IMG/VR virus record: IMGVR_UViG_3300009514_000001
Location: 62,001 to 126,000 of that record
Source: a virus
Length of the DNA: 64,000 nt
Direction: 5' to 3' (one strand)
The notes under the pieces were generated by a model. The model had not been told where the DNA came from. It worked only from the letters and a program-made list of their open reading frames with translations, and did not search any database. Below, piece after piece: positions 7,020 to 34,544 of this stretch. Numbering within the stretch: the stretch's first letter is position 1; every line of letters begins with the position of its first letter. Made by a program: the position numbers and the translations under genes.

Positions 7020-7126
7020 GACCCACTCCAGGTCGACGTGACAGCCATCTCCTGGCCGTCAAACGTCGTTGTTGTCGGAGGGGCCGCCCCCAGCCTCCAT
7101 GCCTCATTGCAGTGTTCGCAGGTCAC
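7016..7126 (-). CDS. 36-aa CxxC micro-protein between the UvrD-like and metallopeptidase genes
   Basis: GTG at 7126 overlaps the TGA of the UvrD-like gene. The frame runs 36 codons and its stop overlaps the ATG of the next gene (ATGA, 7016-7019). A GGAGGA ribosome-binding site precedes the GTG. The product begins VTCEHCNEAWRLGAAPP, with one CxxC pair. The double overlap and ribosome-binding site support a real gene. It might instead only couple translation across the junction. Confidence 0.5.
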   Translation of the reverse strand: MTCEHCNEAWRLGAAPPTTTTFDGQEMAVTSTWSGS

Positions 7127-10100
7127 ATGTCCTCCGGGAGGAACTCGCCCCACTTGGCCCTCAGTTCCTCGGGACCATTTTGGCGTGAGGAGAAGCGACT
7201 CAGGATGTCCTCTGAGGGCCACTCGACGTCTGGTAGGTCTTGGGCCAGGAGCTGGTCCGCCTCGACGTCAGAAAGCCACGAGGACGTCCTCTCGGTGAAG
7301 TCTTCGCTGGGGATGCAACCCTCGGTGACGAACCGACTGGGCTTGCTCCTAATCGTAACCCCCTTCTTGGTGGTACCCAAAACGTCGGGCCGGACAATGG
7401 TCACCGAATCCTCGCCGCGGGTTACGGCCACGTAGGCCAGGCGGCGCTCGGACGCGATGTCTTCCTCAGACTCCGAATTCGGGTGTGGGAAGCCGCCGTG
7501 CCCAGGACCACCCCCCTCCCACATGGGGACGAACAGATGGGGAGCCTCCAGGCCCTTCCATCCGTGGACGGTGTCGAGCTGAACGGCATTGACCGCAGCG
7601 TCGAAATCGGGGTCATTCGGGTTGTCAGACTTCTGGAGCTTGGCGTTGGCTCGCTCCAGTTCCGACATGTAGGACGCGAACTCGTCGATACTGGGGTATG
7701 ACGAAGCGGCTGTCTTCAGGATGGTCAGAGGGCCTAGAGCATAGTCCTCAATGGCCTGCTCCAGGGTGACATCCTCAGTCCCCTTGAGTGCGCTGGCCGA
7801 GACATCCTCCATCGCCTTAGCGTCGTTCTTGACCCGCTCGACGAGGTTGTCGGTGATGCTCTTGTCGTCCTGACCACCCTTGCGGTCAAGGATGTAGTTG
7901 AGCAGCCCCTGGGTGTCGAGAGGAGTGTCTCGATCTTTGCTGCTGAGGAGAGTAATCTCCTGGAGATAGTCGGCGAAGGGCTTGACGTACTCCCGGTTGC
8001 GTCGCCGTGCACGGCCGACGTAGACCTCATCCCAACCGCCACCGAGGAGCCAGGCCAGGAGGTTCTTACCTCTCGCCTTGGAAGCCGCCTTCTTGAAGGT
8101 GTTGATTGAGATGCCCCAGTTCAAAGACCTGAGGGCATCCAGGACCAGGGGGTCGACCCTCTTGGCCGGCTCCGTGAGAGCCGAAGCCCCCATATTGGAG
8201 AGTTGCATCAGACTCAGGACGGACTTGGCCGGGCCCTTGAAGAAGTTGTACTTGGACCGGAACGGGATGCCGAGCTGAATCATGGCAACCCCGTACTCGT
8301 AGGCCTCGCGGTTGGTCCTCACGGCAATGCCGAAGTCCCGGGCCTTGAGAGAAGCATCGTCACCCTGAACCTGGTCGGCGATGGCCTGAGCAACGTAGGG
8401 ACCGAGGGCCTCCCGGGACGGAACCGTGACCTCTCGGATGCTGCCCTCACCCTTGCGTTCGACGTTCGCCTGGCAGACCATCTTGATCTGCTTCTCGTTG
8501 TGGGCAATCATCTGGTTCGCCGCGTCGACGATGGCCGAGCCGGACCGATAGTTCATCCGCAGAATCTTCGTCTCGAACCCTTCGCCGCCGGGAGTCAGGT
8601 CCGACTTCTCGATGAAGAGGTCGGGGTCAGCTCCGCGGAAGCTGTAAATAGAGTTGTGTGAGAGGATGCCGTTGGCGAAGAAGTTGGAGGCGTCTTCAAC
8701 ATCCAGGTCGACGAACTTGGTGTCCTCCGTCCGATTTACGGCGACCACCTTCTCTTGGACGATGGTGTACTGGGCACCTTCCGGAAGGTTGGGTCCGCTG
8801 ATGGCCCTCCCCTTGAACATGGGGACCAACACCGGAACTGTCATACCGGGCTTGACCGCGGACGCCGTCACCAACCTCATCGGTCCCTCAGGGGTGCTCA
8901 AGCGCCGGGACAGCATTGCCCCGGTCCGTTGCACGACGTCCTGGGCAAATGCGAGCGCGTCGCGATAGTTGGCGAACCACCGGCGAAGACGGTTGCGTCC
9001 TTGGGCGGTCCTCACAAACCGCACCCCCTCCAGGCAGTCGTCCAGGTCGTAGCCGGTCCACTCCATCGCTACCTGAGTGTTCGCTCCAGAGTGGGCAATC
9101 ATGTTGAGGGTACGACGCTTTCGTCCGTGTTTTGTGTAGCTCCGTGACATCCAGTTGGGCAGGTCGAAGCTCAGGTTGCGTGCTTCTAGTAGCCTCCCGC
9201 CGTTCCTTCCGAACTCCCGGAACAAGGTCTCGATACGGTCCTGGTTGAGACCCCTATGCACTCCGTTGAACACTGCGGTGGGGATTCCGTAACGGAGACT
9301 GTACTGAGTCTCTTTCAGGAGGGCCTTTTCGCGGTCCTCACAGACATCGATGACCCAGAGCTTCTCGGCCTTCTCCAGAAAAGCTCTCCCACCGAAATGG
9401 TTGAGGTACTGGGTGTCCTTACCTTTGTTGGTGACACCTACCCGGAACCCCATATCCCGGCGCCACATCAGATAGACGATGTGCTGGCCGCCCTCAGTGA
9501 TGATGTCTCCGACCCACAGCTTATGGTTGGGTGACATCAGGAGGTGCTGTCCACCCTCGGTGATGACATCCAACCCCCAGGTCCACGACGATTTCACAGC
9601 ATGACGTACCTTCTGGGGGACGACTTTGCCGTTGCGGTAGGAAAGGACCACGTCCCCCGGCTGAATAGCCGAGGCGTGCTTGCTGTTTCCTCCTGGTGTT
9701 GCAATGACCGAGTTGGCGGCCACGCACTGCTTGTCGTCTCCAATCAACGCCAGGGTGTCGGCTGTCATGTCTCCGTCTTCCCGTGGCTCCTGTGTTTCAG
9801 GGTCGTAATACCCAGCAACCAGGCCGACAAATAGGTGTTGGCTGTTGTGCGAGAGGATGTCTCCTCCGAAGAAATTGGACGCTCTCTCGACCTCAATATC
9901 GAAGAACTCACCTCCATCGACGAGGGCAACCTCCTCAATTATCTCCAGCTCCACAGAGGATTCGCGCAGAGGAGGCAACGGGTCCTCGGCCCTTCTAAGC
10001 TGCTCTTTCCGCATTAGAGTGTGAAATTTTTCTCTCGCCCCCTTACCCATCCCCGAGCAGTCAATGCCGAGACGAGAGGCCAGTCTTCGGTACTCGGACA

Positions 10101-13100
10101 AGGGGAGGAGTTCGGAATACCTAACATCTACCAACCCGCCAGTCTTCACTACCGGAACGGCCATGCCAGGGAACAGAGAGGAGGCTGTGGTAAGGGGGAG
10201 TTTTTCTCCTCCAATCCTTAGGTTGTCCAGAAGAAAGGAACCGTTTGTCTCAGCGACTTTCTCTGCCAGCTTACGAGCTTCGACATAGGAAGGAACCAAC
10301 TTGTTAAAGGTACGACGACCCCCTTTGACCACATAGGTTGCTAGCCCGCAGCTATCTACGTCGTCTCCAGACCATGACATCGAGACCCTAGAACCGACTT
10401 GATACCGGACAGACCGATGAGCATTGAGAGAAACGACCCTTCGAACCTCCTTGCCCCTAGTACTCGTCTGATTGACCCAATGAGGGTAGTCAAAGTAGAG
10501 ATCATGGGCCTCCAGTATCCGTCGTCCGTTATGTCCGAACTCCAAGAACACCCCGTTGATACGCTCCTGGTTACACCCCCGAACAGAGCCCCGAACAGAG
10601 CCCTCGTAGAGGTAGGTCGGAACCTGGTAGCGAAGGGAGTAGAGCTGTTCCTTGAGGAGAATGTCCTCCTCTTCACCCACTTCCAAGAGCCAAGCGCGAT
10701 CTGCCCTTTCTGAACCAGCCCTACTTGAGGAGCCTCCCGCACTTCGAGAAAAAGGACGAGTCGAGGCACCGATACGAAAACCGAGGTCCTCCCGGTACAT
10801 GAGGTAAAGACCCATTTGACCCTCGGGAAGGAGGCCTCGGAAAGGGGTCGCATAGATGCGGTGGTTGGGGGACATCACCAGCTCACGTCCAGAGGAGGTG
10901 GTGATACGATATCCCCTCGACCAGTTGCTCTTTTTCTTGGCCAACACCCTGTTGTAGACCACCTTTCCATTCTCGAACGAGAGGACTGAGCCGCCCACCT
11001 GGACATCACGGATGGCCTTCTCCCCTTCCGGAGTGTAGACGAGGGTCGACCCTAGGACGCAAGCATTCAAATCCTGAGCTTCGTCGACGACGACCATTTT
11101 GAACCGACGTTGGATGCGAGTCCGCACGTTGCGGTTCTCAATCATCATCTTCGAGGCGCCGATGAGCATGTCATCGAAGTCGCCCTGGCCCTCGTACTCG
11201 CTGGCGTTTCCCTTGAGCCACTCGTAGGCCCCGTAGACTGCCGCATAGATGGAGGCGTTAGACTGGCTGAGTGCCCCGTCTCTGGCCCCATCCTGAACAG
11301 CCTTGCCGTGTTCCTCGTGAGCCGCCTTGCCAGGGGCCAGAAGCTGGCCCTTGGTCTTTGAGACGTAGAGGGCGAAACGACCAATGGGGATGGCCGACTT
11401 GGAGTCGCCGGACCCTTCATGGAAGTCATCGTCCCAGGAGGCCCCCAAGTTGAACCACTGGTTCGCCGGCTGCTCTCCCCAGATGGGATTCTTGCTCTTG
11501 ACCCGACCTGACCACGGGGGCTCGTCGGTTTCATCACGGGCGGTCCTTAGGACCGAACTTGTAGTCGCCACAGAAGCGAGCTTGTAGTGGCCCCACCCCC
11601 GACGTTGGAGGGCTCGACGGGTACCTCCGCGCTCATTCTGGTCGGAGGTGACGGCATAGCCCAAGGCACGGTTGATGAAGTCCTTCTGCTTCTGAGTCAT
11701 CTTGGTGGGGTCGACAGGACTCGACTTCCACTTCTGAATGATGGATTGGGACTGGCGGTTCCACCTACTTGGACCGTACTTGCCTTCGTTCCATTTCAGG
11801 AAGTCCATGACGGCAAGAAACACTGAAGAAAGCTCGTCGATTCGCTCTTGGGACTCGTCGACATCGCCCTGCACCTTGGGGAAGAAGGTGGCTTCCGCGT
11901 CGGGCTGGGGCCAGGAGTCCTGCGAGGGCATCATGAGAACCTGGAGGATGGACAGACGAACCAGCTCGGCCTGGTCATATCCTGAGATGATCTTGCCACC
12001 TCTCCTCTTGCCGTAGGTCATACCCATCTTCAGAGCGACGCTGTGGGTCGTCCCGAAGCCTGACTTGCCCTGGCGGTCGGCGTCGATATCGCCGCCGTAG
12101 TTCTTGACGCGCTCAATAAGCTCGGCGCTCGACTTCTTCGTGAAGGAGCAGGCCAGAATCTGGTTGGCCGTCAGACCCACCTCGTTCATATGGTAGACGA
12201 TCTTGCCCGCCAGAACTCTCGTGTTGTGAGAGACAACACCGTTCGCAAGGAAGCTGTGCGTTGTCGGGACCGTGAAGTCATAGACCCGGTGGGTACCCTC
12301 CACACGACGCACCGACACCACCTCGTCAAGGCACATGTCGGAGAGCTTATGGAGAATAGCCGCCTCTGGTCCTTCTGCACCTTTCACGAGACGTTTGAGT
12401 TGCGCCCTTGACGGAGTTCGGTTGCCGAGCAAGTAGTGCTTGACCTGGACCCATCGGTCATCCATCAACAGCGACTGAGACTTCCCGTGCCATCTACCGG
12501 CTTGCTTCCACCACTCTCGGACACCTTTGAGAAGGTCTCCTACATGGGGTACTCCGATGTTGGGGTTGCAGTCCTTTGCGCACAGACTATTCAGGTCATC
12601 GGCCTTCTTGAAGTCGTATCGGAACCCAACGACCTCCCGGAACCCCCGGAGCTGGTCACCGCTGATGAGGATGCGCCAGTACGTGTGGTCGTACCCCTCA
12701 ACATGCTTGGGCTTGAGCATTCCTACAACGCCGAGGCCCAGGAGCATCTGGTGTACCTGACGGGCAAGCGTCTCTGAGGCTGACAACCACTCGAAAGAAC
12801 GGTCTCCAGTAGCCGTGCCGTCTGTATCAAACAGACCCTGCAAAAACCTGATCCTCTCCGCGTCGGAAGAGGACAGGAGCCACGCTGGGACTATCTTGTC
12901 TCGCGCGGAGGAGAAGAACATTCCCTGCTGACGGAGACGCTCCTGAAGTGAGGCACTCCAAAACGTGTGAGTAACGCTCTTCATGTCCTCTTTGGTTGTC
13001 TCTTTGGTTGTCTCTTTGGGTTGCTCGCCCCAGAATTTCTGGGCTAGGCGATAGAAGTGAGAAGGAAGGAAGTCGCCCCCACGAGACCAACAAACTCTGG

Positions 13101-14358
13101 TCTTCTTCGAATCACACCAACCATCACCCATGAACATGCCCAGGAGGTATGCCTCTTCCGGGTCGACGTTCTCCTTTCCCGTGTCAAGAGCATACCCAGG
13201 CTTGAGGACTACGAACTGCCCCTCTTTCATGACATCGAGACGCGTCCACACGGATTGCCCGTCCCAAGTCAGGAGAGGGTGCTCTGGAGTCCCTCGTAGG
13301 CGGATGCCTGAACGAGTTTGGACTTCGATGACCTTGCTCTCCCCCATGTCGAGCCAGGTGGCCTTCTCCAGAGTTGTGTCCAGGGTTTCCGGATTGACCG
13401 ACTTGACCCAGTCCTTTCCACTACACTGATCTAGGCGGAAGGTACCACCCTCAAGTGCCACAAGGGCATCTCCCGTCAGGCATTTGCCCGATCCCGCCCC
13501 GGCTGCAATGACAGCCCGGCCCCGAACCAGCATCGCATCCTCCTGCTCCGGAGAGAGGTTGATGTGTTTGCCAGTCTGTGTCCTGAATTCCTGGGCGGGG
13601 GGGATGGACTTCGAGGCCGCCACAGCCGCTACTGAGGTAGGAGCTTGGCTCGTCTCGACGACCTCTTCGATGCGAGCGTTCAGGGCCGCTTTTCGCTCCT
13701 TGAGAGCTACGGAGCGAGCTTCTGTGGGGTCTGTGGAGGAGATGGCCTGCTTGACGTCTGCGACCTTCTCAGCCAGTATCGCAACCGTCTCGGCGTCCGA
13801 CTGGGCCTCTTCGGTCTCGCTCAGTCCGGCGCCGAGGTTCTGTGCCGCGACCTTGACCCAGTTGCGTGGCTTGACGATGCCACTGACGGCCGGGATGGCT
13901 GCCAAGGCCCTCAGGACGGCCGCCGGGTCTTCCAGCTTCGAGGCATGGAGAACGCCCTTGACGGCGGCTCGGGAGCGACCCGTGAACACACTGCGTAGGA
14001 CGTCTGCCTTGTTGACCAAACGACTGAGAGCTGTGGTCAGGAAGTCTACCTGAGCGAAGACGACGACGTCGGCGCGACCTTTGGCCCGCTTCGCCTTGTT
14101 CATCTTGCCCTTGACGCCACCAATGCGTCCCTCCTCGACCAAGGGATACATGTGCTTCTTTAGGTTGGCCTCCATCTCCTTGCGATAGAGACGGGCGATC
14201 TCAAAGCCCCGCTTGAGATGGTCGTCGCGACCGCGGGCTTCCATACCTCGGGCGTAAGCCCCGAACCCAACCCAGAAGACACTGAGGTCCACCAGGCGGT
14301 CTGGTGTAGTCACATGGTCGCTGCCTTTCTTCTTCGCCGCTGCTTCGCGAGTAGTCAT
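7123..14358 (-). CDS. UvrD/PcrA-like superfamily 1 DNA helicase interrupted by three inteins (2411 aa precursor)
   Basis: Removing the three inteins leaves a helicase of about 1227 aa. Its first ~265 residues are a helical, charged region I do not recognise. The SF1 helicase motifs follow: Walker A AGAGSGK|T, motif II DEAQDLN, motif III GDDKQ|SIYSFRGAD, motif IV MNYRSG, motif V VHGWKGLE and motif VI ERRLAYVAVTR. Bars mark intein junctions. All three inteins start with Cys and end His-Asn, and the following residue is Thr, Ser and Ser. ATG 14358 has GAGG seven bases upstream. The likely role is 3'-5' unwinding in phage recombination or repair. Catalysis depends on splicing, since the P-loop and motif III are split. 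Confidence 0.93.
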   Translation of the reverse strand: MTTREAAAKKKGSDHVTTPDRLVDLSVFWVGFGAYARGMEARGRDDHLKRGFEIARLYRKEMEANLKKHMYPLVEEGRIGGVKGKMNKAKRAKGRADVVVFAQVDFLTTALSRLVNKADVLRSVFTGRSRAAVKGVLHASKLEDPAAVLRALAAIPAVSGIVKPRNWVKVAAQNLGAGLSETEEAQSDAETVAILAEKVADVKQAISSTDPTEARSVALKERKAALNARIEEVVETSQAPTSVAAVAASKSIPPAQEFRTQTGKHINLSPEQEDAMLVRGRAVIAAGAGSGKCLTGDALVALEGGTFRLDQCSGKDWVKSVNPETLDTTLEKATWLDMGESKVIEVQTRSGIRLRGTPEHPLLTWDGQSVWTRLDVMKEGQFVVLKPGYALDTGKENVDPEEAYLLGMFMGDGWCDSKKTRVCWSRGGDFLPSHFYRLAQKFWGEQPKETTKETTKEDMKSVTHTFWSASLQERLRQQGMFFSSARDKIVPAWLLSSSDAERIRFLQGLFDTDGTATGDRSFEWLSASETLARQVHQMLLGLGVVGMLKPKHVEGYDHTYWRILISGDQLRGFREVVGFRYDFKKADDLNSLCAKDCNPNIGVPHVGDLLKGVREWWKQAGRWHGKSQSLLMDDRWVQVKHYLLGNRTPSRAQLKRLVKGAEGPEAAILHKLSDMCLDEVVSVRRVEGTHRVYDFTVPTTHSFLANGVVSHNTRVLAGKIVYHMNEVGLTANQILACSFTKKSSAELIERVKNYGGDIDADRQGKSGFGTTHSVALKMGMTYGKRRGGKIISGYDQAELVRLSILQVLMMPSQDSWPQPDAEATFFPKVQGDVDESQERIDELSSVFLAVMDFLKWNEGKYGPSRWNRQSQSIIQKWKSSPVDPTKMTQKQKDFINRALGYAVTSDQNERGGTRRALQRRGWGHYKLASVATTSSVLRTARDETDEPPWSGRVKSKNPIWGEQPANQWFNLGASWDDDFHEGSGDSKSAIPIGRFALYVSKTKGQLLAPGKAAHEEHGKAVQDGARDGALSQSNASIYAAVYGAYEWLKGNASEYEGQGDFDDMLIGASKMMIENRNVRTRIQRRFKMVVVDEAQDLNACVLGSTLVYTPEGEKAIRDVQVGGSVLSFENGKVVYNRVLAKKKSNWSRGYRITTSSGRELVMSPNHRIYATPFRGLLPEGQMGLYLMYREDLGFRIGASTRPFSRSAGGSSSRAGSERADRAWLLEVGEEEDILLKEQLYSLRYQVPTYLYEGSVRGSVRGCNQERINGVFLEFGHNGRRILEAHDLYFDYPHWVNQTSTRGKEVRRVVSLNAHRSVRYQVGSRVSMSWSGDDVDSCGLATYVVKGGRRTFNKLVPSYVEARKLAEKVAETNGSFLLDNLRIGGEKLPLTTASSLFPGMAVPVVKTGGLVDVRYSELLPLSEYRRLASRLGIDCSGMGKGAREKFHTLMRKEQLRRAEDPLPPLRESSVELEIIEEVALVDGGEFFDIEVERASNFFGGDILSHNSQHLFVGLVAGYYDPETQEPREDGDMTADTLALIGDDKQCVAANSVIATPGGNSKHASAIQPGDVVLSYRNGKVVPQKVRHAVKSSWTWGLDVITEGGQHLLMSPNHKLWVGDIITEGGQHIVYLMWRRDMGFRVGVTNKGKDTQYLNHFGGRAFLEKAEKLWVIDVCEDREKALLKETQYSLRYGIPTAVFNGVHRGLNQDRIETLFREFGRNGGRLLEARNLSFDLPNWMSRSYTKHGRKRRTLNMIAHSGANTQVAMEWTGYDLDDCLEGVRFVRTAQGRNRLRRWFANYRDALAFAQDVVQRTGAMLSRRLSTPEGPMRLVTASAVKPGMTVPVLVPMFKGRAISGPNLPEGAQYTIVQEKVVAVNRTEDTKFVDLDVEDASNFFANGILSHNSIYSFRGADPDLFIEKSDLTPGGEGFETKILRMNYRSGSAIVDAANQMIAHNEKQIKMVCQANVERKGEGSIREVTVPSREALGPYVAQAIADQVQGDDASLKARDFGIAVRTNREAYEYGVAMIQLGIPFRSKYNFFKGPAKSVLSLMQLSNMGASALTEPAKRVDPLVLDALRSLNWGISINTFKKAASKARGKNLLAWLLGGGWDEVYVGRARRRNREYVKPFADYLQEITLLSSKDRDTPLDTQGLLNYILDRKGGQDDKSITDNLVERVKNDAKAMEDVSASALKGTEDVTLEQAIEDYALGPLTILKTAASSYPSIDEFASYMSELERANAKLQKSDNPNDPDFDAAVNAVQLDTVHGWKGLEAPHLFVPMWEGGGPGHGGFPHPNSESEEDIASERRLAYVAVTRGEDSVTIVRPDVLGTTKKGVTIRSKPSRFVTEGCIPSEDFTERTSSWLSDVEADQLLAQDLPDVEWPSEDILSRFSSRQNGPEELRAKWGEFLPEDM
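8653..9726 (-). mobile_element. Intein 3 of the UvrD-like helicase, sister of intein 2 (358 aa)
   Basis: Precursor residues 1545-1902, inserted inside motif III (GDDKQ^SIYSFRGAD). It begins CVAANSVIATPGG and ends ASNFFANGILSHN with Ser at +1. Block B is MSPNHKLWV. Its centre has IVYLMWRRDMGFRVG, then LLKETQYSLRYGIPT, NQDRIETLFREFG and FDLPNW, collinear with intein 2. A diverged internal duplication of ITEGGQH flanks block B. It is about 50 residues shorter than intein 2. Confidence 0.92.
9844..11061 (-). mobile_element. Intein 2 of the UvrD-like helicase, non-LAGLIDADG central domain (406 aa)
   Basis: Precursor residues 1100-1505, inserted just after motif II (DEAQDLNA^SQHLF). It begins CVLGSTLVYTPEG, has MSPNHRIYA as block B, and ends ASNFFGGDILSHN with Ser at +1. 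No LAGLIDADG helix is seen. Instead the centre has GLYLMYREDLGFRIG, then LLKEQLYSLRYQVPT and FLEFGHNG. All of these recur in intein 3. The YLM(x7)FRIG arrangement recalls the GIY-YIG nuclease core, but this is tentative. A 12-bp tandem repeat encodes GSVR twice (10577-10603). Confidence 0.92.
12223..13482 (-). mobile_element. Intein 1 of the UvrD-like helicase, LAGLIDADG type (420 aa)
   Basis: Precursor residues 293-712, inserted after Lys of the P-loop (GAGSGK^T). It begins CLTGDALVALEGG and ends HSFLANGVVSHN, with Thr at +1. GTPEHPLLT is splicing block B (TxxH). The central endonuclease has two LAGLIDADG-like helices, LLGMFMGDG and LQGLFDTDG. Acidic residues are kept in both, so the nuclease may be active. 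The endonuclease tail (HTYWR, then VVGF, then VPHV) resembles that of the SNF2 intein. A 12-bp in-frame tandem repeat encodes ETTK twice (12988-13019). Confidence 0.93.
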
Positions 14359-14461
14359 CCGCTGGCCTCAATCAAGGTCAAACCGTACGAGGAGGTCTCT
14401 CTCTCTTACAAGATATCGACTTTCTATCGACCCACTAGATCACACAAAGGCGCAGGGGTCT
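14359..14461. other. Short intergenic region upstream of the UvrD-like gene
   Basis: 103 bp. It contains two direct TATCGAC copies (14414-14420 and 14425-14431, 11 bp apart) and the GAGG ribosome-binding site of the helicase gene. The paired repeat could be an operator. I could not identify a convincing promoter. Confidence 0.35.
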
Positions 14462-15494: not shown

Positions 15495-15501
15495 ACGAGC
15501 C

Positions 15502-15717: not shown

Positions 15718-15832
15718 GGATGTCATCTCCTCAAGGACGAGTATCTGGCTGGGGGGCACTTTGCCAAGCGCGCCCTCTTCTTAGAGTACCTGGGTTTGGT
15801 CAAGTTCGCGAACAGCACCCGAGACCAGGGCC

Positions 15833-18337: not shown

Positions 18338-19144
18338 CTAGTCTCCGAACAGGTCCAGAATTCCGAAGGAGTCCTCCGGACGAGTCCGCGTCGACGGCAC
18401 ATGGGGAGCACGTCTCCCATAGGCGGTTAGGGCGTCTTTTTCGACGTCGAATCCGATGAATCTGCGCCCCAGACCCTCCGCAGCGACCAGGGTGGTCCCG
18501 CTGCCGGCAAAGGGGTCGACGACGATATCACCGGGATGACTCGCCTGTCGAATCATGACCTCCATCAGCTCAACCGGCTTCTGGGTCGGATAGAGATCGT
18601 CGCCTCGGGGGGCCTTGAAAGGGAGGACATCCCGCACACCTCTGTCCTCCGCCATAGGACGCTTGCCTTTCTCGGCGAAGAGAATCATCTCGTAGGACCC
18701 CCGGTACGGGTACCCCATGCCCATTGAGCCTTCGGAAAGGACGGCCCCTCCCATTGAACCACAGACAGAGCACTCGGTACCGCTCATCCTCCCAACCTTC
18801 TGCCAGATGAGAGGCTTGCGCAGCTCGAATCCCACCTCCAGAACCATCGGGACCATGGCCAAGAAGGCCTGGTACTCGCACATGATGTACAGGTGCGTCT
18901 TGTTCTTGAGGACCCGATAACACTCCCGAAGCACCTCTTCCAGGTACTCGGCCGGGACCACCGGGAACCACTTGTTCGAGCTTCCCTTCGACTCCTTCAG
19001 TCGGGTCGTCGTGCCCAGGGCCCGCCACTTCTCCATCGAGTCGTAGGCCGGGTCCATGAGGATGAGATCGACCACCCCGTCGTCCAGGGAGCGGAGACCC
19101 TCCAGGGCTCCTATGAGGTGCATTCGGTCCAGTTTGAGACTCAT
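18338..19144 (-). CDS. Beta-class DNA (N4-cytosine/N6-adenine) methyltransferase with C-terminal ILDLFGD
   Basis: 268 aa. Motif IV DPAY (residues 31-34, a DPPY variant) precedes the SAM-binding FAGSGTT (about 212-218). That is the beta-class order of exocyclic-amino methyltransferases. A CSVCG pair (about residues 126-130) may bind zinc. TQKP before the SAM motif is typical. It probably methylates phage DNA to evade restriction or marks DNA for regulation. No restriction endonuclease is beside it. The tail GILDLFGD is nearly identical to the ends of the recognition protein at 34551 and its decayed copy, and resembles the bacterial sliding-clamp motif QL(S/D)LF. ATGA links it to the upstream gene. 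Confidence 0.88.
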   Translation of the reverse strand: MSLKLDRMHLIGALEGLRSLDDGVVDLILMDPAYDSMEKWRALGTTTRLKESKGSSNKWFPVVPAEYLEEVLRECYRVLKNKTHLYIMCEYQAFLAMVPMVLEVGFELRKPLIWQKVGRMSGTECSVCGSMGGAVLSEGSMGMGYPYRGSYEMILFAEKGKRPMAEDRGVRDVLPFKAPRGDDLYPTQKPVELMEVMIRQASHPGDIVVDPFAGSGTTLVAAEGLGRRFIGFDVEKDALTAYGRRAPHVPSTRTRPEDSFGILDLFGD

Positions 19145-21678: not shown

Positions 21679-21927
21679 CGTCTTCTCTCGTCTTGTCTAT
21701 CTTCTCATCGAGAACGCGCAGGTGTCTCTCTTGCCTGGCAAGGGACTTCTCCTGGGCCCTGAGGGCACCATTGTGCACCTTACCGAGGGTGGCGCGGATT
21801 CGTTCCACGCGCCTCTCGACGAGACGAGCCCCTCCCTGCACTCAGCGAGGTCACCTGGACACTCGGACGAAGGTCCAATACCCAGAGCGGCCTCCAAGAC
21901 AGCTAGGCGTCTTTGGGTGTCATCCAT
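21650..21927 (-). CDS. Small coiled-coil protein, possibly one frameshifted gene or two overlapping frames
   Basis: Two frames share this interval. One starts at ATG 21927 within the polymerase end and reads gene-like for ~30 residues (MDDTQRRLAVLEAALGIG). It then degenerates into unlikely sequence (to 21697). The second, from GTG 21841 to 21650, is a convincing charged helix (LVERRVERIRATLGK, then LARQERHLRVLDEKIDK). A -1 shift near 21800-21840 would join them into one ~90-residue coiled-coil protein. No canonical slippery heptamer is seen, so a mutation, a sequencing error or two separate genes are all possible. Confidence 0.4.
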
Positions 21928-26017: not shown

Positions 26018-26026
26018 ACACACCCC

Positions 26027-27054: not shown

Positions 27055-27679
27055 GGAATAGCTCGTTGTAGCGTTTCAGGAGACGCCCCTTGGCCTCCTT
27101 CCAGGGAAGCGGGACAATGTAGTCCGAGAACCACCCTGTGTGAATGTTGGTGGCGAACAAGCGCCCGTTGACGGGCCGAGGAAGAGGTTGTCCCCCCACT
27201 TCCTCGGGGAGGTCCCACGACTTCACCGGGTCCCTATCCCCGAAGAAGCTGTGAATCTCCAGAACCAAAGCCGCCAGGTCTGCCCACCGTACACTGGGAG
27301 GCATCTCCGGGACATCCGGGTCGAAGGGAATGCCCAGGGCGCTCCATATGGTCTGGGTGGTCTCCCACTCCACGTCGTCGAACCAAGTGATTCCGTCCTG
27401 TCTCATCCTGTGCTTGATGGGCTCTCCGAGGTCCCCCAGGTAGGCCTCGGCGAAGTCATGGGTGAGTCCTTTCCTGGCGTCCTCGGGGGCGCATAGCTGA
27501 CTCACCATGATACTGTGCTGGGCCACGGAGAAAGGCTCCGGGGTATGGCCGTTGTAGCGAGGCTGGGCGGACAGCGAGTGCACGATATCGAGGATGTGAA
27601 CGTCCTCTCGGGCGAGACGGTGGGGGTAGAGGAATCGGCGCTGGTAAGCGGTCTTGAGGCGTGGTTCTTTCTTTCTCAT
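27047..27679 (-). CDS. HD-domain phosphohydrolase (YfbR-like) (210 aa)
   Basis: ATG 27679 shares one base with the helicase stop (TGATG). The frame back to 27805 lies inside that gene. Metal-binding motifs of HD phosphohydrolases are visible: FSVAQHSIMVSQL, then GLTHDFAEAYLGDLGEPIK with the HD pair. YfbR-type members hydrolyse deoxynucleoside 5'-monophosphates. In phages such enzymes adjust nucleotide pools during replication, which fits its place among replication genes. The substrate is inferred. Confidence 0.78.
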   Translation of the reverse strand: MRKKEPRLKTAYQRRFLYPHRLAREDVHILDIVHSLSAQPRYNGHTPEPFSVAQHSIMVSQLCAPEDARKGLTHDFAEAYLGDLGEPIKHRMRQDGITWFDDVEWETTQTIWSALGIPFDPDVPEMPPSVRWADLAALVLEIHSFFGDRDPVKSWDLPEEVGGQPLPRPVNGRLFATNIHTGWFSDYIVPLPWKEAKGRLLKRYNELFHE

Positions 27680-30552
27680 CAGTCGTCGCTGCTCATGAAA
27701 TCGGTGGATAGTTCCTCGGCCTTGCGCACGGTCTCTTCGGCCTTCTCTGCGTTGGCCAGGGCCTCGAAGTCTACCGGGTCCGTGCAGGTCATGACGCGCC
27801 GACAACGCCAGTCAACGGCTGTGTAGAGAGGTTCGAACTTCTCGTCGTCTCTGGTCTTGATGCACTGGACTAGGAGACGATTGGTCTTCCGAAGGACATC
27901 ATTGATGAACCCGGCCGTGATGACGTCGCTGGAGCGTTCGATCTCGTTGGAGTAACTGAGGTCGTAGGCCTCATAGATGCCCACGCGGCCTCCGTTCTTG
28001 CCCATGTTGGCGCGCTTGAACCCCTCGCGGCTGATCTGGAACAGGGCCACGACGGCGATGCCTTCCCCTCGGTTGAAGTTGTTGGACAGAATCTTGAGAT
28101 CACGGACGACCTCATTGGCCCTGGCTGTCGTACTCGGGTTGTACTGCTTGGGGTCAACCAGGAGGACGTGGTCGACCACAATCATGTTGAACGGGCTCTG
28201 GCGATAGAGCAGCTCTGACTTGGACCGAATGTCGCTGACCCGGAAGCTGTCCTCATCCGGGTTGTACCCCACGAAGTGCATCTTGCCGTAGCCGTTGGCC
28301 GGGTCTTTCAGGTCTGGGAGGACGAACTGGGTGAGGAACTCCTCCTCGTTCGGCGGCAGACACCCATCCCGGAGGAAACGGTAACGAAGCCCCAGGTCAA
28401 CCTCTCCCTGTCTCTGGATGGCCAGACGGAGGCGAGCCTCCCGGAACTTCGGGTGCATCGAGTGCATCGCGATAATGATGCGACGACATTGGTCGTAGGA
28501 CATCTCCAGGGTGAAGTAGCAGGAGCTGTACTTGAACCAGATGGCCTGGTTGTAGACCCAGTTGAAGGCGACGCTGCTGTTGTGGACGATGAACCCATCC
28601 GCGACGAAGTTCTCGGGTCCCGGGACGGACAAATCGTAGGTCATCTCCTCCCCGTCGTAGGTGACCTCATCCACCTGGGTCCACCAGACGTCACCGTCGG
28701 CCTGCCGGAGCAGACCATCGTCCTGGGCCGCCTCTGCGAGACGACGAACCGTGTCCCGGTGAACTGACCGGCGCTCTTTCGCCCAACGCGCATATTGCCA
28801 ACCCCCCTTGCGAGTCTGGGTGCGGACGTCATCACCAAGGTGGGCCAGAAGGGCCGTGGGCATCTTGTCGTCTTCGGTGCGGTCAGGGAGGTGTCCGAGA
28901 GCTTCCTCCACAGCATCCTCCACAGCATCCTCCACAGCATCCTCCTTGCCGAAGATAGTAGACCGCGTAAGGAACCGGCGCTTCGACTCCGTGGTCCGAA
29001 CAGAGACGTTCCAAAAGACTCTCCTCTCCCCCTTGTACATAATCTGTACGGGGGAGAGAGTGGTCACTACCCCGACTCGTTGGAGGAGGAGTTGGATATC
29101 CGAGGCCAACTGACGGCTCTTACTCGTGTAGTAGATGTTGACCTGGTGGCGATCTTGCCGACCCTCACGTCGCCGGAACACGGACCCCACGGACCCGTCC
29201 GTCGACCACAAGGCCGAGAGAAACAGCCACGTCTGGTCGTCGGTCATCGACCACAACTCACCCGGGACGAACTTGTCCTCGGAACCCTTATCCCAGAGAC
29301 CAAGATCCTCAGCCAGGACACGAAGGGGGGAAGTCCATGGATGGTACTTACTTCGGCCAGTGGAAGTACTCAAATCAACCCTGTCCGAACGCTCTCGGAA
29401 ATAAGCATATCGAGCCTTCCCTCCCTCCGGGGCACGCCTATACCCCATCCTGCGAAGACGGGCGATGAAGTCGGAGCGGATGCCTGGATTCGATACGGAT
29501 AGTTGCAGACACTCCCTCAGGCAGCCGTCCCCCAGGAGATATCCGAGACACACCACTTGGTCGTCACTCCACTCAGAGTCCTCGGGGGAAGTGGTCATGT
29601 GCTTGGCCAAACCCACCCAAGAGCCCTTCTGAAGACCATCCGCACGCACCCAACCTCCGGGGGTGAGGAACGGATGGTTCTCCGACACACGGATGGTGTG
29701 GCCTGTCTTGGTTCGCACCTTGAGGATGGGCTTGACTCCGTTCTTCGCCACCCTACTCGTGCGGGTCTCCGCCAGCTTGACAGAGCCCTCGTCGAGGGCA
29801 TGGAGCCGCGCGCAACGACGGCTCTTGTAAAGATCACCTATCGTTTTCAATTCTCCTGTGTAAGTGTCGAATATCTTTACGGAATTCGCGACGCATTTTA
29901 AGTGACCTGTAAAGCCAGCATGGGTCCAGAGCTGCTTCTTGCGGGCACCGCCGAGGGCGACGTCAATCTGCTTGATGCCCATGTACTGGCCGATACCGAA
30001 GTTGGGGTCATCGCGCCGTCGTTTGTAATCCTCCCAGTAGTCTTCGGTGTCCTCAGTGACCTCGCCGTCTGTGCGCATCCCACCTGGTGGGCGACCGATG
30101 AGGGAGGCCTCCCGCTGGAAGTAGGAAATGGCGTCACGAGGGCCCTTGAAGATGCGGTCCTTCCCGTCCTTCCCTGGGAGCTTGAGGCCCTGCATATTGA
30201 TGTGGTTGGCGTTTTGGAGACGCTCCTGGAGCTTGGCCTGGAGTCTCTCCTCTGAGCGTTCGTAGAGGCGGGCTCGGAAGTCGCCCCGGAACAGGGGTCG
30301 GAGCTGTTTGAGAATCTCAAGCTGGTCTACGATGTCGCTCTGCTTCTCCCGACGGAAGTGAGAGGTCAGGGTCGTGACGTCGGGGGCATGGTTGTGGGCA
30401 CGGAAGAACTCTCTAACGTACTCCCAGATGGTCTGGTGCTCTGGGATGAGGAACTCAAGGCCCTCGGCCTGGGTGTCCAGGATGTTGGCCAGGAGGAGAT
30501 CAGGGTCATCGGTATGGTCGACCCTGAACATGGACCGCAACAAAATCTTCAT
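27679..30552 (-). CDS. DnaB-like replicative helicase with one intein (957 aa precursor)
   Basis: About 518 aa after intein removal. The N-terminal ~200 residues are a helical DnaB-N-type region (IWEYVREFFRAHNHAP). The RecA-like ATPase has a phage-style P-loop AGFTGHLK|SSVAFNW, a Walker-B-like MIVVDHVLLVDP (about residue 794 of the precursor) and a late FQISREGFKRA arginine segment. GGAG precedes ATG 30552. It should be the hexameric fork helicase, working with the polymerase, the primase-type protein and the candidate loader encoded nearby. Splicing is needed to restore the P-loop. Confidence 0.88.
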   Translation of the reverse strand: MKILLRSMFRVDHTDDPDLLLANILDTQAEGLEFLIPEHQTIWEYVREFFRAHNHAPDVTTLTSHFRREKQSDIVDQLEILKQLRPLFRGDFRARLYERSEERLQAKLQERLQNANHINMQGLKLPGKDGKDRIFKGPRDAISYFQREASLIGRPPGGMRTDGEVTEDTEDYWEDYKRRRDDPNFGIGQYMGIKQIDVALGGARKKQLWTHAGFTGHLKCVANSVKIFDTYTGELKTIGDLYKSRRCARLHALDEGSVKLAETRTSRVAKNGVKPILKVRTKTGHTIRVSENHPFLTPGGWVRADGLQKGSWVGLAKHMTTSPEDSEWSDDQVVCLGYLLGDGCLRECLQLSVSNPGIRSDFIARLRRMGYRRAPEGGKARYAYFRERSDRVDLSTSTGRSKYHPWTSPLRVLAEDLGLWDKGSEDKFVPGELWSMTDDQTWLFLSALWSTDGSVGSVFRRREGRQDRHQVNIYYTSKSRQLASDIQLLLQRVGVVTTLSPVQIMYKGERRVFWNVSVRTTESKRRFLTRSTIFGKEDAVEDAVEDAVEEALGHLPDRTEDDKMPTALLAHLGDDVRTQTRKGGWQYARWAKERRSVHRDTVRRLAEAAQDDGLLRQADGDVWWTQVDEVTYDGEEMTYDLSVPGPENFVADGFIVHNSSVAFNWVYNQAIWFKYSSCYFTLEMSYDQCRRIIIAMHSMHPKFREARLRLAIQRQGEVDLGLRYRFLRDGCLPPNEEEFLTQFVLPDLKDPANGYGKMHFVGYNPDEDSFRVSDIRSKSELLYRQSPFNMIVVDHVLLVDPKQYNPSTTARANEVVRDLKILSNNFNRGEGIAVVALFQISREGFKRANMGKNGGRVGIYEAYDLSYSNEIERSSDVITAGFINDVLRKTNRLLVQCIKTRDDEKFEPLYTAVDWRCRRVMTCTDPVDFEALANAEKAEETVRKAEELSTDFMSSDD
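28579..29895 (-). mobile_element. Intein in the DnaB-like helicase P-loop, LAGLIDADG type (439 aa)
   Basis: Precursor residues 220-658, inserted at GHLK^SS of the Walker A motif. It begins CVANSVKIFDTYTGEL and ends NFVADGFIVHN with Ser at +1. VSENHPFLTPGG is block B. The endonuclease helices are VCLGYLLGDG and LSALWSTDG. Three 12-bp tandem units (28905-28940) encode repeated EDAV inside it. Confidence 0.93.
28905..28940 (-). repeat. Three 12-bp tandem repeats inside the DnaB intein
   Basis: The 12-mer CCTCCACAGCAT occurs three times in perfect tandem and a fourth copy begins at 28941. In frame it gives an EDAV tetrapeptide repeat between the endonuclease region and the C-terminal splicing block. 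Comparable 12-bp tandem repeats occur in UvrD inteins 1 and 2. Confidence 0.9.
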
Positions 30553-30567
30553 GAATGAGGCGCTCCG

Positions 30568-31506
30568 TTAGCTTCCTTGCTTCTTGCTCTTCTTCTTGGC
30601 CTTCTTTTTCTTCCACTCCTTCTCTGGGTCCCGATGAACCCGAAGTGAAGACTTCCGACTCTCTTTCACGAGGCCAGTCTTCGAGGGCAACTCCTGGTCG
30701 AACCCGACGGTCCCTGAGGTGACCGGAGACGGCATGTCGGGGTAGTCGGTCTCGCGGTCGTCACCCAGATCGATTCCGACGTACTCCCACATCTCGATGT
30801 GGTCCATCAGGTGGTCGGAGTAGCACAGATGGCCGGGAGCTAGGGGGGTGTGGGGCTGGTCGAAGAGCCAGGTGGGCTTGCCCTCGTGGAACCGGCTGCT
30901 CAGAGCCTCCCCCAACACCCCGGGCATCTCCTTGTTGTTCGCCGCCTTCATCCCCAGATGGATGATGAGCAGCTCTGGAGGAATCACCAGGTCCTGGAGG
31001 GTGTAGAAGGACATGGAGACCGGAGCGGCGTCCGAATCAAAAATCTCGCCACCCCCCAGAGGAACGGTCGCCAACCAGGCGGTTATCAGGTCAGTGTCGC
31101 TAGCGACCTTGAAAAACCACCGGCTCCCTTTGCGAATGGCGACATGACGGAGGTGCTCTCGGAACACCCTCGTCGGCGCCGTCACCCACACGTTCTTGTC
31201 GGTCAGGTCCCGCAAAGGCGAGGACTCGATGTTGGCGGCCCGACTCAGACCACGCCACCCGGCCTCGACGTTGTCGAGGATGTCCCGTGCGGCCATGCAC
31301 TCACAGCGCATCCGTCCTGGGGGAATGGTGGAGTCGTCTTGAACGAACCCGTGACCGAAACATTGGGGGCAGTTGGGGTCCCCGGGACCCGTGTCGTCGA
31401 CCTTCTCCCGATAGTCAGGGTGGTTGAGTCCTGACGTCTCTGCATCGAAAGCCACTCGACGTCTTTTGTAGTTGGAGCCGTAGCCGTCGTGGTCGTCGTC
31501 CTTCAC
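30568..31506 (-). CDS. Candidate helicase-loader-like protein lacking a P-loop (312 aa)
   Basis: Near the N-terminus, CPQCFGHGFVQ followed by RMRCECMAARDIL gives the paired Cys pattern of DnaI/DnaC-type loader N-domains. The following ~150 residues have the rhythm of an AAA+ domain (NVWVTAPTRVFREHL, then PPELLIIHLGMKAANNKE and KPTWLFDQP). I see no GxxxxGK(S/T) Walker A, so ATP binding is doubtful. The C-terminus is a Lys-rich tail (KKKKAKKKSKK). It lies directly upstream of the DnaB-like helicase and overlaps the SNF2 gene by ATGA, so helicase loading is a reasonable guess. Confidence 0.5.
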   Translation of the reverse strand: MKDDDHDGYGSNYKRRRVAFDAETSGLNHPDYREKVDDTGPGDPNCPQCFGHGFVQDDSTIPPGRMRCECMAARDILDNVEAGWRGLSRAANIESSPLRDLTDKNVWVTAPTRVFREHLRHVAIRKGSRWFFKVASDTDLITAWLATVPLGGGEIFDSDAAPVSMSFYTLQDLVIPPELLIIHLGMKAANNKEMPGVLGEALSSRFHEGKPTWLFDQPHTPLAPGHLCYSDHLMDHIEMWEYVGIDLGDDRETDYPDMPSPVTSGTVGFDQELPSKTGLVKESRKSSLRVHRDPEKEWKKKKAKKKSKKQGS

Positions 31507-34500
31507 TTCTTCCTCCTTGATTTCCGCGCGTCCTCCAGAACGCCCTCGTAGATGGCCTTGAGGTCTCCGTCTGCGCTAATAGTGACTGGCTTGGACTCGC
31601 CCTTGATGCGCCGGCCGAGGACAGCTTCCACCAAATCCATCTTCTTGCGCAAGACCTGATTGACACGCATGTCGATGGAGCCGATGCCGCACAGGTGGAT
31701 GGCATAGACCCGGTCGTGCTGACTGCCGATGCGGACCATCCGCCCCAGGAGCTGGAGGTAGTCACCGGCGCTCCAGGGGGTGTCGTAGCAGATGAGGCCC
31801 TTGGCGGCTTGGAGGTTGATGGCGTCCGATCCCGCCGTCGTAATGACGATGACCTTGGTGTCTGAGTTGGGGTCCTGGAAGAGACGCTGCGCCTCTGCGC
31901 GCCTCTTCGGATTGCTGTCGTGCCCCGTGATACTCACCGCGTAGCGGTTCTTCCGCCGCTCGTCAGTGTTGTTGAGCGCGGGCATGATGAGCTTAACCAT
32001 CTCGGCGAACCGGGTGAACACGATGACCTTCTCATCGGCCAGGTCGCCCTCTGACAAGAGGTCCTTGAGGAGGCTGAACTTCTTGGACTTGCCATCCCTC
32101 CCCAACAGCTCTGGGTGGTTGACAATCTGCTGGAGGCGCGTACACGCCGTGAGGTGGTCGACCTCCTTCTGCTCCATCTCCCCCGTCTCTTTGTCCTGGA
32201 CCCAGAGGAGGCCGGAGAGGGCTTCGCTGTACAGACGAGTCTGGTCGCCGTGCATCGAGAACTTGAGCATCCGGAAGGTCACGTTCGGAAGCTCTGTCGC
32301 GACCTCGTGCTTGGGCCGCCCCAGGAAGAACGGGTCTATCACCCGCCGGAACCTCTCGATGTCCTCGTCCCGGTATCCGATGATGACCGGAATCTGTCGG
32401 CCGCTCTTGGGGAGCTTCTGCAAGCGGGTGATGCAGTAGTCCTTCATGAAAGAGGTCTTCGTCCCAAACAGCGGAGGCATGACGACCTTGTAGATGCCAT
32501 AGCCCTCGATGAGGTTGTTCTTGATGAGAGTCGCTGTCAGACCCCAAACCCAGGCAACCCCTTCCTTTTGGGCCAGGGCCTTGCAGACCTGGTGGATACG
32601 GGCTCTCGGATTCTTGAACGCAGTTGCCTCGTCGTAGACGACGACCCTGAAGTCGAGTTCACCGTGGATTTTAGTAAAGTCTGCCCTCGCCAGGGCATAG
32701 TTCATGACGATGACTGCCGGTCCTTTCTCGGCGAGAAACTCAGCGTATTGCTTCTCCCTCTTCTTCGGATTTCCTCCGGTCATCGCTGTGACGTGCACCC
32801 CTGTGGTGAACTTCTGAAACTCGCCGGCCCACTGGGGGACGGCTGACTTCGTCGTCAGGATGAGCGCCTTCTGGTCTGGGTTGGTCCTCCAGAGGACACA
32901 GAGGGAGGCGATGGTACTGAGCGTGTTGTGGTTGACAACCCCATTTCCGACATAGCAATGAGACGGGTCGTCGACTGTGATGTCGTACACCTCGGCCTCT
33001 CCCCTCTCGATATTCCTCACAGGATCGTAGAACCACTCTCTCTGACGAACCCGACTCAACTCTAGGAGGGAGGGGGAGTCTTGTGGCACTCCCACCTCTA
33101 ACGCAACCCCCAACATGGTATCGAGGAACGAATAGGAGACATTACGGCGCCCTGCCCGGACATGTCCAAGGGTGGTATAGAAAGCATTCCCGAATCTCTT
33201 CGAAGTGCCTCCCCCCTTGTACCCCTGACGTCCACAACGAGCGTAAATCTCCTCCCGCAAGGCCTCCACCTCTGGCTTGAGATGGGGGACTACATCGTGG
33301 TTGGTGTTCTCCTTGTGCTGTGTCAGGGGAAGGATGGCGTCCCGCTTGCGTTGAGAGATGAGACCCACGTGCTCCATGAACACTCGGGCGTCCTCCCCCA
33401 GGATTGTCAGCCTCCAGTAGGTGTGGTCTCGCCCCTTAACCGCCTTCGGAGACCTACGGGACACAACCCCAAACCCCAGAAGGACAATCTGGAGCTGTTT
33501 GGCCAATTTCTCCGAGGCAGAACTGAACTCGATACCGTTCTTGGTAACGTGGCTCTCCGCATCCACTAAAGCCCGTACAAACTGACGCACGCACTCCCGG
33601 TCTGCCCGAAGGACCGACCACGGGATACACTTGTCTTTGGCGACTCCTTTGGGGACACCTATCGCCTCCAGCCACCGAATCAGATAGGTGCTGGCTATGG
33701 GATAATCGTTCCCATGTTTTCGTACGGGATATTTGAACAGAGTGTCAATGAGGTATTCGATGTCCGCACTGGTCTCAGGATTACTAAGGGAGCACTGGCT
33801 GATAGTAAAAAACCTTCCATCCTTGTGGTTAAACCACCCCTCTCCATCCTTGTGGTTAAACCACCCCTCTGCGATCAGATACCCCAGGAACCTGGCCAGC
33901 TCTGGAACCATCTTGAACTGGGTGGGGTACGTTTTCTCCCCATTCCGAGCGACCTCAGAGGGGAGGGACACGGGGACCCTTCCAAACTTGTAAGGGCTCC
34001 GATCAATGCAAAGGTAGTCCCCCTCACGAACCTCTGCGAGCTTAACCCAGACCTCACCTCCGCCACGACGAACCCGGACCGGGTGGACGAGAGACCCTTC
34101 GATCTCAAAGCCGTGATGCGTCTGGACTTTCCGGGTAGGCTTCACACCTCCATGGTAGAACTGTGAGACCTGGAGTTCCTTCCCCCCGACCTGAACGCTC
34201 CAATGATCCACGGGAGCAAAGGTGTCTGGTTTCGTGATCCCTGGGTTGATATCCTCGATAGGGACCAACCCATTCGACCCCGTTCGAATCAGGGTGTCTC
34301 CTCTGGTGCACTTACCTAATCCGGTGTCGTCGCCCAGGATGAACCGCCCCATGGAAGCCATGTGCAGGATGCCGATGACCTGGTAGTCCCGAATCTTGAG
34401 GGGGCGCTCCACCCCATCGAACCCGACGAAGGTCTCCCGGAGGTTCGGCGGCTTCCTCTTGATGGCCAGGCCCTTCTTCTTCCGAATGGCCGAGAGGCGC

Positions 34501-34544
34501 TTGTACCTCTTCTCGGTCGTCGGGTTCATCTTGTACTTGCTCAT
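31503..34544 (-). CDS. SNF2/superfamily 2 helicase-like ATPase with one intein (1013 aa precursor)
   Basis: About 551 aa after intein removal. SF2/SNF2 motifs in order: KIRDYQVIGILHM (Q/motif I region), Walker A GDDTGLGK|T, DEAT (about residue 637), LTATLIKNN (motif III) and a C-lobe with KVIVFTRFAEMVKL. ITTAGSDAINLQ and QLLGRMVRIGSQHD (motif VI) follow. A DNA translocase role in phage replication, recombination or defence evasion fits. The protein is basic at the N-terminus (MSKYKMNPTTEKRYKRL). It is linked to the loader-like gene by ATGA. Confidence 0.9.
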   Translation of the reverse strand: MSKYKMNPTTEKRYKRLSAIRKKKGLAIKRKPPNLRETFVGFDGVERPLKIRDYQVIGILHMASMGRFILGDDTGLGKCTRGDTLIRTGSNGLVPIEDINPGITKPDTFAPVDHWSVQVGGKELQVSQFYHGGVKPTRKVQTHHGFEIEGSLVHPVRVRRGGGEVWVKLAEVREGDYLCIDRSPYKFGRVPVSLPSEVARNGEKTYPTQFKMVPELARFLGYLIAEGWFNHKDGEGWFNHKDGRFFTISQCSLSNPETSADIEYLIDTLFKYPVRKHGNDYPIASTYLIRWLEAIGVPKGVAKDKCIPWSVLRADRECVRQFVRALVDAESHVTKNGIEFSSASEKLAKQLQIVLLGFGVVSRRSPKAVKGRDHTYWRLTILGEDARVFMEHVGLISQRKRDAILPLTQHKENTNHDVVPHLKPEVEALREEIYARCGRQGYKGGGTSKRFGNAFYTTLGHVRAGRRNVSYSFLDTMLGVALEVGVPQDSPSLLELSRVRQREWFYDPVRNIERGEAEVYDITVDDPSHCYVGNGVVNHNTLSTIASLCVLWRTNPDQKALILTTKSAVPQWAGEFQKFTTGVHVTAMTGGNPKKREKQYAEFLAEKGPAVIVMNYALARADFTKIHGELDFRVVVYDEATAFKNPRARIHQVCKALAQKEGVAWVWGLTATLIKNNLIEGYGIYKVVMPPLFGTKTSFMKDYCITRLQKLPKSGRQIPVIIGYRDEDIERFRRVIDPFFLGRPKHEVATELPNVTFRMLKFSMHGDQTRLYSEALSGLLWVQDKETGEMEQKEVDHLTACTRLQQIVNHPELLGRDGKSKKFSLLKDLLSEGDLADEKVIVFTRFAEMVKLIMPALNNTDERRKNRYAVSITGHDSNPKRRAEAQRLFQDPNSDTKVIVITTAGSDAINLQAAKGLICYDTPWSAGDYLQLLGRMVRIGSQHDRVYAIHLCGIGSIDMRVNQVLRKKMDLVEAVLGRRIKGESKPVTISADGDLKAIYEGVLEDARKSRRKK
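32925..34310 (-). mobile_element. Intein in the SNF2-like P-loop, LAGLIDADG type (462 aa)
   Basis: Precursor residues 79-540, inserted at GLGK^T. It begins CTRGDTLIRTGSNG and ends YVGNGVVNHN with Thr at +1. GSLVHPVRVRR is block B. The endonuclease helices LGYLIAEGW and VRALVDAESHV are diverged, but an acidic residue is kept in each. SASEKLAKQLQIVLLGFGVV and DHTYWRL closely match UvrD intein 1. A perfect 27-bp tandem duplication follows the first helix. Confidence 0.92.
33816..33869 (-). repeat. Perfect 27-bp tandem duplication in the SNF2 intein
   Basis: Two adjacent identical 27-bp copies (33816-33842 and 33843-33869) encode EGWFNHKDG twice, just after the first LAGLIDADG-like helix. Absence of any mismatch suggests a recent event. 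It adds nine residues next to the nuclease active-site helix. Confidence 0.95.

Follow-up and report, generated by a model that had tools for sequence, protein, structure and literature searches.

Six inteins in four DNA-metabolism genes of a phage genome, two of them with a proposed GIY-YIG-like endonuclease domain

Interrupted genes and their inteins

We analysed 64,000 nucleotides of viral DNA, bases 62001–126000 of the 222,005-base IMG/VR virus record IMGVR_UViG_3300009514_000001. This stretch is further referred to as the window, and positions are those of the window unless stated otherwise. Within 27.4 kb of it, four minus-strand genes, encoding a UvrD/Rep-family helicase, a family A DNA polymerase (PolA), a DnaB-like replicative helicase and an SNF2-family helicase, are interrupted by six inteins, three of them in the UvrD gene, and each precursor is encoded by an unbroken open reading frame (ORF). 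The initial annotation, made from the sequence, had described six in-frame inserts that start with Cys, end in His-Asn, are followed by Ser or Thr and total 7,350 bp. The translations and boundaries agree with it exactly, and the sum corresponds to 27% of the stretch. It had placed the inserts at the P-loops of UvrD, DnaB and SNF2, in polymerase motif B, beside UvrD motif II and in UvrD motif III, which is where they lie. The genes and inteins are as follows (aa, amino acids; slashes mark insert boundaries).

7123–14358, minus strand: UvrD/Rep-family helicase precursor with three inteins, 2411 aa, spliced 1227 aa; UvrD-helicase E = 1.8e-24, UvrD_C E = 1.2e-18
12223–13482, minus strand: intein UvrD-a, 420 aa, Walker A, GAGSGK/C..HN/T, LAGLIDADG type
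9844–11061, minus strand: intein UvrD-b, 406 aa, just downstream of motif II, VVVDEAQDLNA/C..HN/S, proposed GIY-YIG-like domain
8653–9726, minus strand: intein UvrD-c, 358 aa, motif III, GDDKQ/C..HN/SIYSFRGA, proposed GIY-YIG-like domain
21920–26023, minus strand: family A DNA polymerase precursor, 1367 aa, spliced 1002 aa
22964–24058, minus strand: intein PolA, 365 aa, motif B lysine, KRKQGK/C..HN/SANFALSYG, LAGLIDADG type
27679–30552, minus strand: DnaB-like replicative helicase precursor, 957 aa, spliced 518 aa
28579–29895, minus strand: intein DnaB, 439 aa, atypical Walker A, FTGHLK/C..HN/SS, LAGLIDADG type
31503–34544, minus strand: SNF2-family helicase precursor, 1013 aa, spliced 551 aa
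32925–34310, minus strand: intein SNF2, 462 aa, Walker A, DTGLGK/C..HN/T, LAGLIDADG type

Removal of the inserts rejoins the motifs of all four enzymes. The class 1 splicing residues (Cys1, the block-B His, the terminal His-Asn and Ser or Thr at +1) are complete in six of six, block B reading TPEH, SPNH, SPNH, TAQH, SENH and SLVH across the set. The Hint-domain search proposed in the initial annotation gave Pfam Hint/intein matches for UvrD-a, UvrD-b, UvrD-c, DnaB and SNF2, and there were NCBIfam matches as well. The sixth insert, in PolA, is matched weakly (E = 1e-4, 18 bits, curated cut-off 35.8); it also has C1, block-B TAQH, HN/S and two LAGLIDADG motifs, and is 46% identical to the intein at the same site in the related locus L038 (loci of the record and of relatives are designated by L and a number). 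An AlphaFold2 (AF2) model of UvrD-c has a mean predicted local distance difference test score (pLDDT) of 93 and a predicted TM-score (pTM) of 0.90, and its Hint part matches the solved inteins NpuDnaB (TMt 0.81) and gp41-1 (0.81) in a Foldseek comparison. All six are probably full-length, self-splicing inteins of class 1 type.

For every one of the six sites, at least one related phage has the gene uninterrupted at that very codon, which shows the inserts to be insertions. The UvrD-a site is empty in LR745208 (L011) and L024 and occupied in L098 and L015; the UvrD-b site is empty in L014, L016 and L098, with allelic inteins in LR745208, L018 and L019; the UvrD-c site is empty in LR745208, L098 and L024 and occupied in SPO1, phi92-like phages, huge phages and bacteria of the Candidate Phyla Radiation. 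The PolA site is empty in L036 and L037 and occupied in L038, and the SNF2 site is empty in L096 and occupied in L097. For DnaB a pattern scan yielded no relatives; those found by a search of related records have the site empty in L101, L102, L103, L105 and L107 and occupied in LR745208 and L110. A failure of the Hint searches, or relatives that keep the segments as fixed domains, would have spoken against inteins; the searches match, and relatives lack the segments. The patchy occupancy of the same codons is the pattern that homing produces.

Four of the inteins carry LAGLIDADG endonuclease domains:

12625–12852, minus strand: LAGLIDADG_3 domain of UvrD-a, motifs MFMGDG and LFDTDG, E = 1.4e-14
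23174–23350, minus strand: LAGLIDADG_3 match in the PolA intein, motifs GMFSGDG and GLVDTDG, E = 3.2e-4, below the curated cut-off
28966–29226, minus strand: LAGLIDADG_3 domain of the DnaB intein, E = 1.1e-11
33363–33596, minus strand: LAGLIDADG_3 domain of the SNF2 intein, catalytic acids Glu (AEG, AES), E = 2.3e-15

The model (PF14528) scores above its cut-off in UvrD-a, DnaB and SNF2 and reaches 19 bits against a cut-off of 22.5 in PolA; two LAGLIDADG motifs with acidic residues are present in all four. In their Hint domain, C1, block-B His, HN and Ser/Thr at +1 these inteins are like known LAGLIDADG class 1 inteins (DnaB inteins as in NCBIfam PRK07773; TliVMA/PhoVMA, PI-SceI), with which they share the position of the LAGLIDADG domain after the block-B/GD strand. 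Nothing essential differs, although the PolA match is weak and both catalytic acids of SNF2 are Glu.

The same host genes have further features in relatives. A second polymerase intein site, GPIQG/C..HN/(S/T)SADI, is found in L038 and L039, and in L097 another intein of SNF2 interrupts the DE box (DE/CFQ..SN/CTAF). The L036 locus, where the polymerase is intein-less, contains a probable free-standing GIY-YIG gene, a frame with GLYEIRNTQTGKFYLGSSRHMRSRWWRHRKD.

Middle domain of the UvrD-b and UvrD-c inteins

The UvrD-b and UvrD-c inteins are 33% identical. Neither matched a LAGLIDADG motif, and profile comparison with LAGLIDADG domains gave nothing. Their middle domain is laid out as follows.

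10606–10815, minus strand: proposed GIY-YIG-like core of UvrD-b, LYLMYREDLGFRIG...R..E...E..YSLRY (family profile)
9268–9483, minus strand: proposed GIY-YIG-like core of UvrD-c, IVYLMWRRDMGFRVG...R..LEK...A..KE
8860–9513, minus strand: whole UvrD-c middle domain, without a match in Pfam; a helix and a beta-rich accessory module accompany the proposed GIY-YIG-like core

A search of Pfam with the 210-residue middle domain at a relaxed E-value returned chance matches only, and a profile search of PDB sequences returned none. The consensus of the core is [V]YLMxRxDxG[FY]R[VI]Gx[TS]...R...E.A...W.L......A...E..YSL.YGIPT..F, with invariant or near-invariant positions Y85, G93, R95, G97, R114, E118 and E139. 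Y85 and G97 are invariant; R114 and E139 occur in at least 90% of members and in both window copies. The core is predicted to fold as beta-beta-alpha-beta-alpha (AF2 pLDDT 90). Alignment of its profile by hhalign with 29 GIY-YIG domains from bacterial genomes gave a score of 38.0 (Prob 91, E = 9e-7, 62 columns), placing VYLM on GIY, FRVG on YIG and A..E on A..E. The best of 200 column-shuffled control profiles scored 18.9, and the other controls (the reversed profile, LAGLIDADG, Hint and the accessory module) gave nothing. When 5,546 ORFs were searched with a GIY-YIG hidden Markov model (HMM), the true members ranked first, followed by UvrD-b/c-type domains, in register, among the sub-threshold matches. 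In a Foldseek search of the viral structure library BFVD, named GIY-YIG endonucleases recur below the family's own members. On this evidence we propose that UvrD-b and UvrD-c carry a distant GIY-YIG-like endonuclease.

With GIY-YIG endonucleases (bacterial UvrC, YhbQ-type, T5orf172/MUG113) the domain would share the predicted beta-beta-alpha-beta-alpha core and the conserved Tyr, Gly, Arg and Glu. It differs from them in lying inside an intein, in having Arg for the YIG tyrosine and R...E for R...H, and in scoring below the Pfam cut-offs. T5orf172/MUG113 was considered as the nearest GIY-YIG branch, a 'K/R-I-G' motif being the hint, and was rejected, since profile comparison gave no support.

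The domain also appears to occupy an unusual place in the Hint fold. In UvrD-a, block B (TPEH) is followed by 'WTRLDVMKEGQFVVLKP' and only then by the LAGLIDADG domain. In UvrD-c the order is different: the GIY-YIG-like domain adjoins block B (SPNHKLW) directly and precedes the equivalent strand, 'LVTASAVKPGMTVPV'. The proposed nuclease thus enters the Hint fold sooner than is usual, after block B but before the 'A..L..GM.V' strand, whereas the canonical endonuclease position lies further on. The accessory module is missing in the diverged members L029–L031 and in SPO1.

Distribution, movement and density

Relatives of the middle domain were found in phi92-like phages, a Klebsiella phage, huge phages, one Myxococcota genome and three Patescibacteria-type genomes; via a diverged member, the search reached SPO1 (family HMM E = 7e-20) and Vibrio phage RYC. 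Nearly all of them are at UvrD motif III, in the context GDxxQ/C..HN/(S/C). The inteins annotated in GenBank in the SPO1 gp34.33 helicase and in UvrD of phi92-like phages have the same motif-III site and middle domain as UvrD-c; the SPO1 intein, 275 aa long, differs from UvrD-c in having no C-terminal accessory module. In the portion of the SPO1 annotation that was read, no class of endonuclease is given. UvrD of Klebsiella phage KP13-16 (L013:1444–2454) has a second intein, at the P-loop (GTGK/AQPLT..HN/TST), to which the class 1 mechanism cannot apply, as it starts with Ala and not Cys.

Two more sites in UvrD are occupied in relatives and empty in the window: site d (ANQLIKHN/C..HN/SKQIPM) in L015 and L024, the two inteins being 51.5% identical, and site e in motif V (GTCH/C..HN/STKGAEW) in L019. 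A maximum-likelihood tree was built for 27 lineage members and drawn with midpoint rooting. The site-b inteins form one clade (100/100), as do the site-d inteins (100/100). Most of the diversity outside these two clades is found at site c, and both clades lie among c members (the grouping of d with c is not starred). The simplest reading is that motif III was the starting point from which the lineage reached other sites of the UvrD gene.

At sites b and c, conservation is higher in the intein than in the host protein, as is expected if inteins move between phages. UvrD-c inteins are 47–61% identical between phages whose UvrD proteins are 29–38% identical; between UvrD-b and its counterpart in LR745208 the values are 49.6% for the intein and 35.8% for the host protein. 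This is consistent with ongoing homing at sites b and c. Some limits apply. The identities of the exteins were computed over the whole protein, poorly conserved ends included; with midpoint rooting alone, the direction in which inteins moved within the gene is inferred; and the four LAGLIDADG inteins have identities similar to or below those of their exteins, with no sign of recent transfer.

The six inteins in the window are real, they lie at conserved active-site codons and their density is unusually high, as the initial annotation held: six in 27 kb, as compared with at most three per genome in crAss-like Zeta phages, for which an 'unprecedented density' of introns and inteins, with up to 14 introns, was reported (PMC7886860). 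The density is not private to this phage, however. Related huge phages (L097/L038, L019, LR745208) are similarly loaded, hence it is a trait of the phage group. Pfam intein-model matches number 5 in LR745208, 7 in G005, 5 in G006 and 6 in G007, counts that do not correspond to one match per intein. The whole 222-kb record contains nine inteins, two of them split. The three outside the window, identified with the Pfam intein model in two stretches of the record, are in an actin-like gene and in one gene with two split inteins. Beyond what had been noted before, the analysis thus adds two endonuclease classes, three inteins outside the window and one intein lineage spread inside UvrD.

The actin-like gene (L009:5447–7564; Pfam Volactin E = 9e-68) has a LAGLIDADG intein ending in HN/C. 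The gene with the split inteins (L010:3806–7524, record bases 202806–206524), probably structural, is in three pieces. The N-halves are 30 and 33 aa long, the second intein starts with Ser, and an endonuclease-like gene (TnsA-like; DUF559/Vsr-like) lies between each pair of halves. Its relatives are a single ORF in L121 (297 aa) and L123 (319 aa) and have only the second break in L120 and L122.

Other features of the window include four giant minus-strand ORFs at 43854–55223 (3789 aa), 37139–42967 (1942 aa), 55287–58376 (1029 aa) and 58376–62062 (1228 aa). The first three had no match in PHROGs and the fourth matches only a family of unknown function there; the 1942-, 1029- and 1228-aa ORFs, the three searched against Pfam, had no match. 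Near 36 kb the GC skew switches sign. An MmeI-type target recognition domain (34551–35525, minus strand, E = 7e-16) and an N6/N4 DNA methylase (18338–19144, minus strand, E = 2e-35) hint at modification of phage DNA.

Explanations and relation to known systems

We consider it very probable that all six are full-length, probably self-splicing and probably mobile inteins, four with LAGLIDADG endonucleases, and that UvrD-b and UvrD-c belong to a separate lineage with a distant GIY-YIG nuclease. Given the intact catalytic residues, each intein would excise after translation and restore the active site, and the position of the inserts suggests that the host enzymes would be inactive until spliced. 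Any active-site intein makes its host protein need splicing; that the replication enzymes of this phage are 'unusually dependent' on it, as the initial annotation suggested, can only be inferred, and no sign of regulation was seen. The sporadic allelic distribution and the intact endonuclease residues suggest homing, in which the endonuclease would cleave the intein-free allele carried by a co-infecting relative and repair would copy the intein in. The GIY-YIG-like lineage is centred on UvrD motif III, from SPO1 to the huge phages, and would have reached other sites of the same gene from there.

Among the other explanations, the one with most in its favour accepts the six as inteins and takes the UvrD-b/c middle domain for an unrelated or degenerate one, with a chance beta-beta-alpha-beta-alpha likeness. 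Several observations speak for it and against our assignment. The GIY-YIG match is under every Pfam cut-off. Foldseek comparison of the middle domain with PDB gave no significant match, with no GIY-YIG among the 50 listed and a weak LAGLIDADG match at the top. The small T5orf172/MUG113 profile gave no match, a UvrC-only profile is matched weakly, the named BFVD matches are individually weak (E 0.01–0.2), and the second tyrosine of the motif (YIG) is an invariant Arg. That tyrosine is not required superfamily-wide, sampled T5orf172/MUG113 members having Lys there. The profile alignment, in register and scoring double the best of the 200 shuffled controls, the enrichment in the HMM search, the GIY-YIG-rich BFVD fold matches and the conservation of the Y, R, E and G positions argue against chance, and we regard this explanation as improbable. 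The lack of a PDB fold match and of a T5orf172/MUG113 match, together with the Arg, is the reason why the domain is named here only a proposed, distant GIY-YIG-like nuclease.

Less likely again is that the inteins were domesticated as conditional-splicing switches holding the replication enzymes inactive, the density then resulting from selection on the phage and not from selfish spread. All six are in or beside active sites, and two reports document conditional splicing in mycobacterial DnaB inteins (PMC6195587, PMC7360933). We rank this explanation low because relatives lack each of the inteins, hence none is required; moreover, occupancy is patchy, and the endonuclease domains retain catalytic residues, as mobile elements should. 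A reading of the segments as assembly artefacts, or as Hint-like domains that do not splice, is very hard to reconcile with the exact empty sites in relatives, with the intact frames and catalytic residues, and with the homologous inteins that occupy the same codon in phages sequenced independently, the isolates SPO1 and JohannJBalmer among them.

Mobile inteins of two endonuclease types, the reading that we prefer, can be compared with several known systems. A 2006 survey of the GIY-YIG superfamily did not find members in inteins (PMC1564403), and the 55 GIY-YIG genes of Jug phages are all stand-alone (PMC12363816). The split class 3 intein AceL NrdHF has a GIY-YIG gene between its halves (PMC7891396). 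There, as here, a GIY-YIG endonuclease is tied to an intein in a phage-like contig, but its nuclease is a separate gene, whereas the nuclease-like domain of UvrD-b/c lies within a contiguous intein of class 1 type. We found no report of GIY-YIG embedded in an intein in the accessible literature; most subscription papers are outside it, so that an earlier description is possible. Crowding of several sites in one helicase gene, as in UvrD, is also seen in haloarchaeal MCM with its four intein sites (PMC10643990); the MCM inteins studied are LAGLIDADG, while UvrD here has two endonuclease classes and two of its three inteins are paralogues. The crAss-like Zeta phages (PMC7886860) likewise have core genes heavily loaded with splicing elements, mostly group I introns; here there are nine inteins, and group I introns were not searched for.

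We lean, with some reserve, towards regarding UvrD-b/c as an undescribed contiguous intein class that may have a GIY-YIG-type homing endonuclease at a non-canonical Hint position and that occurs in Bacillus, enterobacterial, Vibrio and huge phages and a few bacteria, at no fewer than four sites of one helicase gene. If true, the partnership of Hint and endonuclease would have arisen again, with another nuclease and in a different Hint loop, and would provide new splicing and cutting modules. Phage BSP10 has a helicase intein and its relatives phiNIT1 and Grass do not (PMC5977233); with a lineage member in SPO1 and this intein absent from phiNIT1 and Grass, homing is directly testable. The radiation within one gene, to sites b, c, d and e, would also serve as a natural experiment in the colonisation of new sites by inteins.

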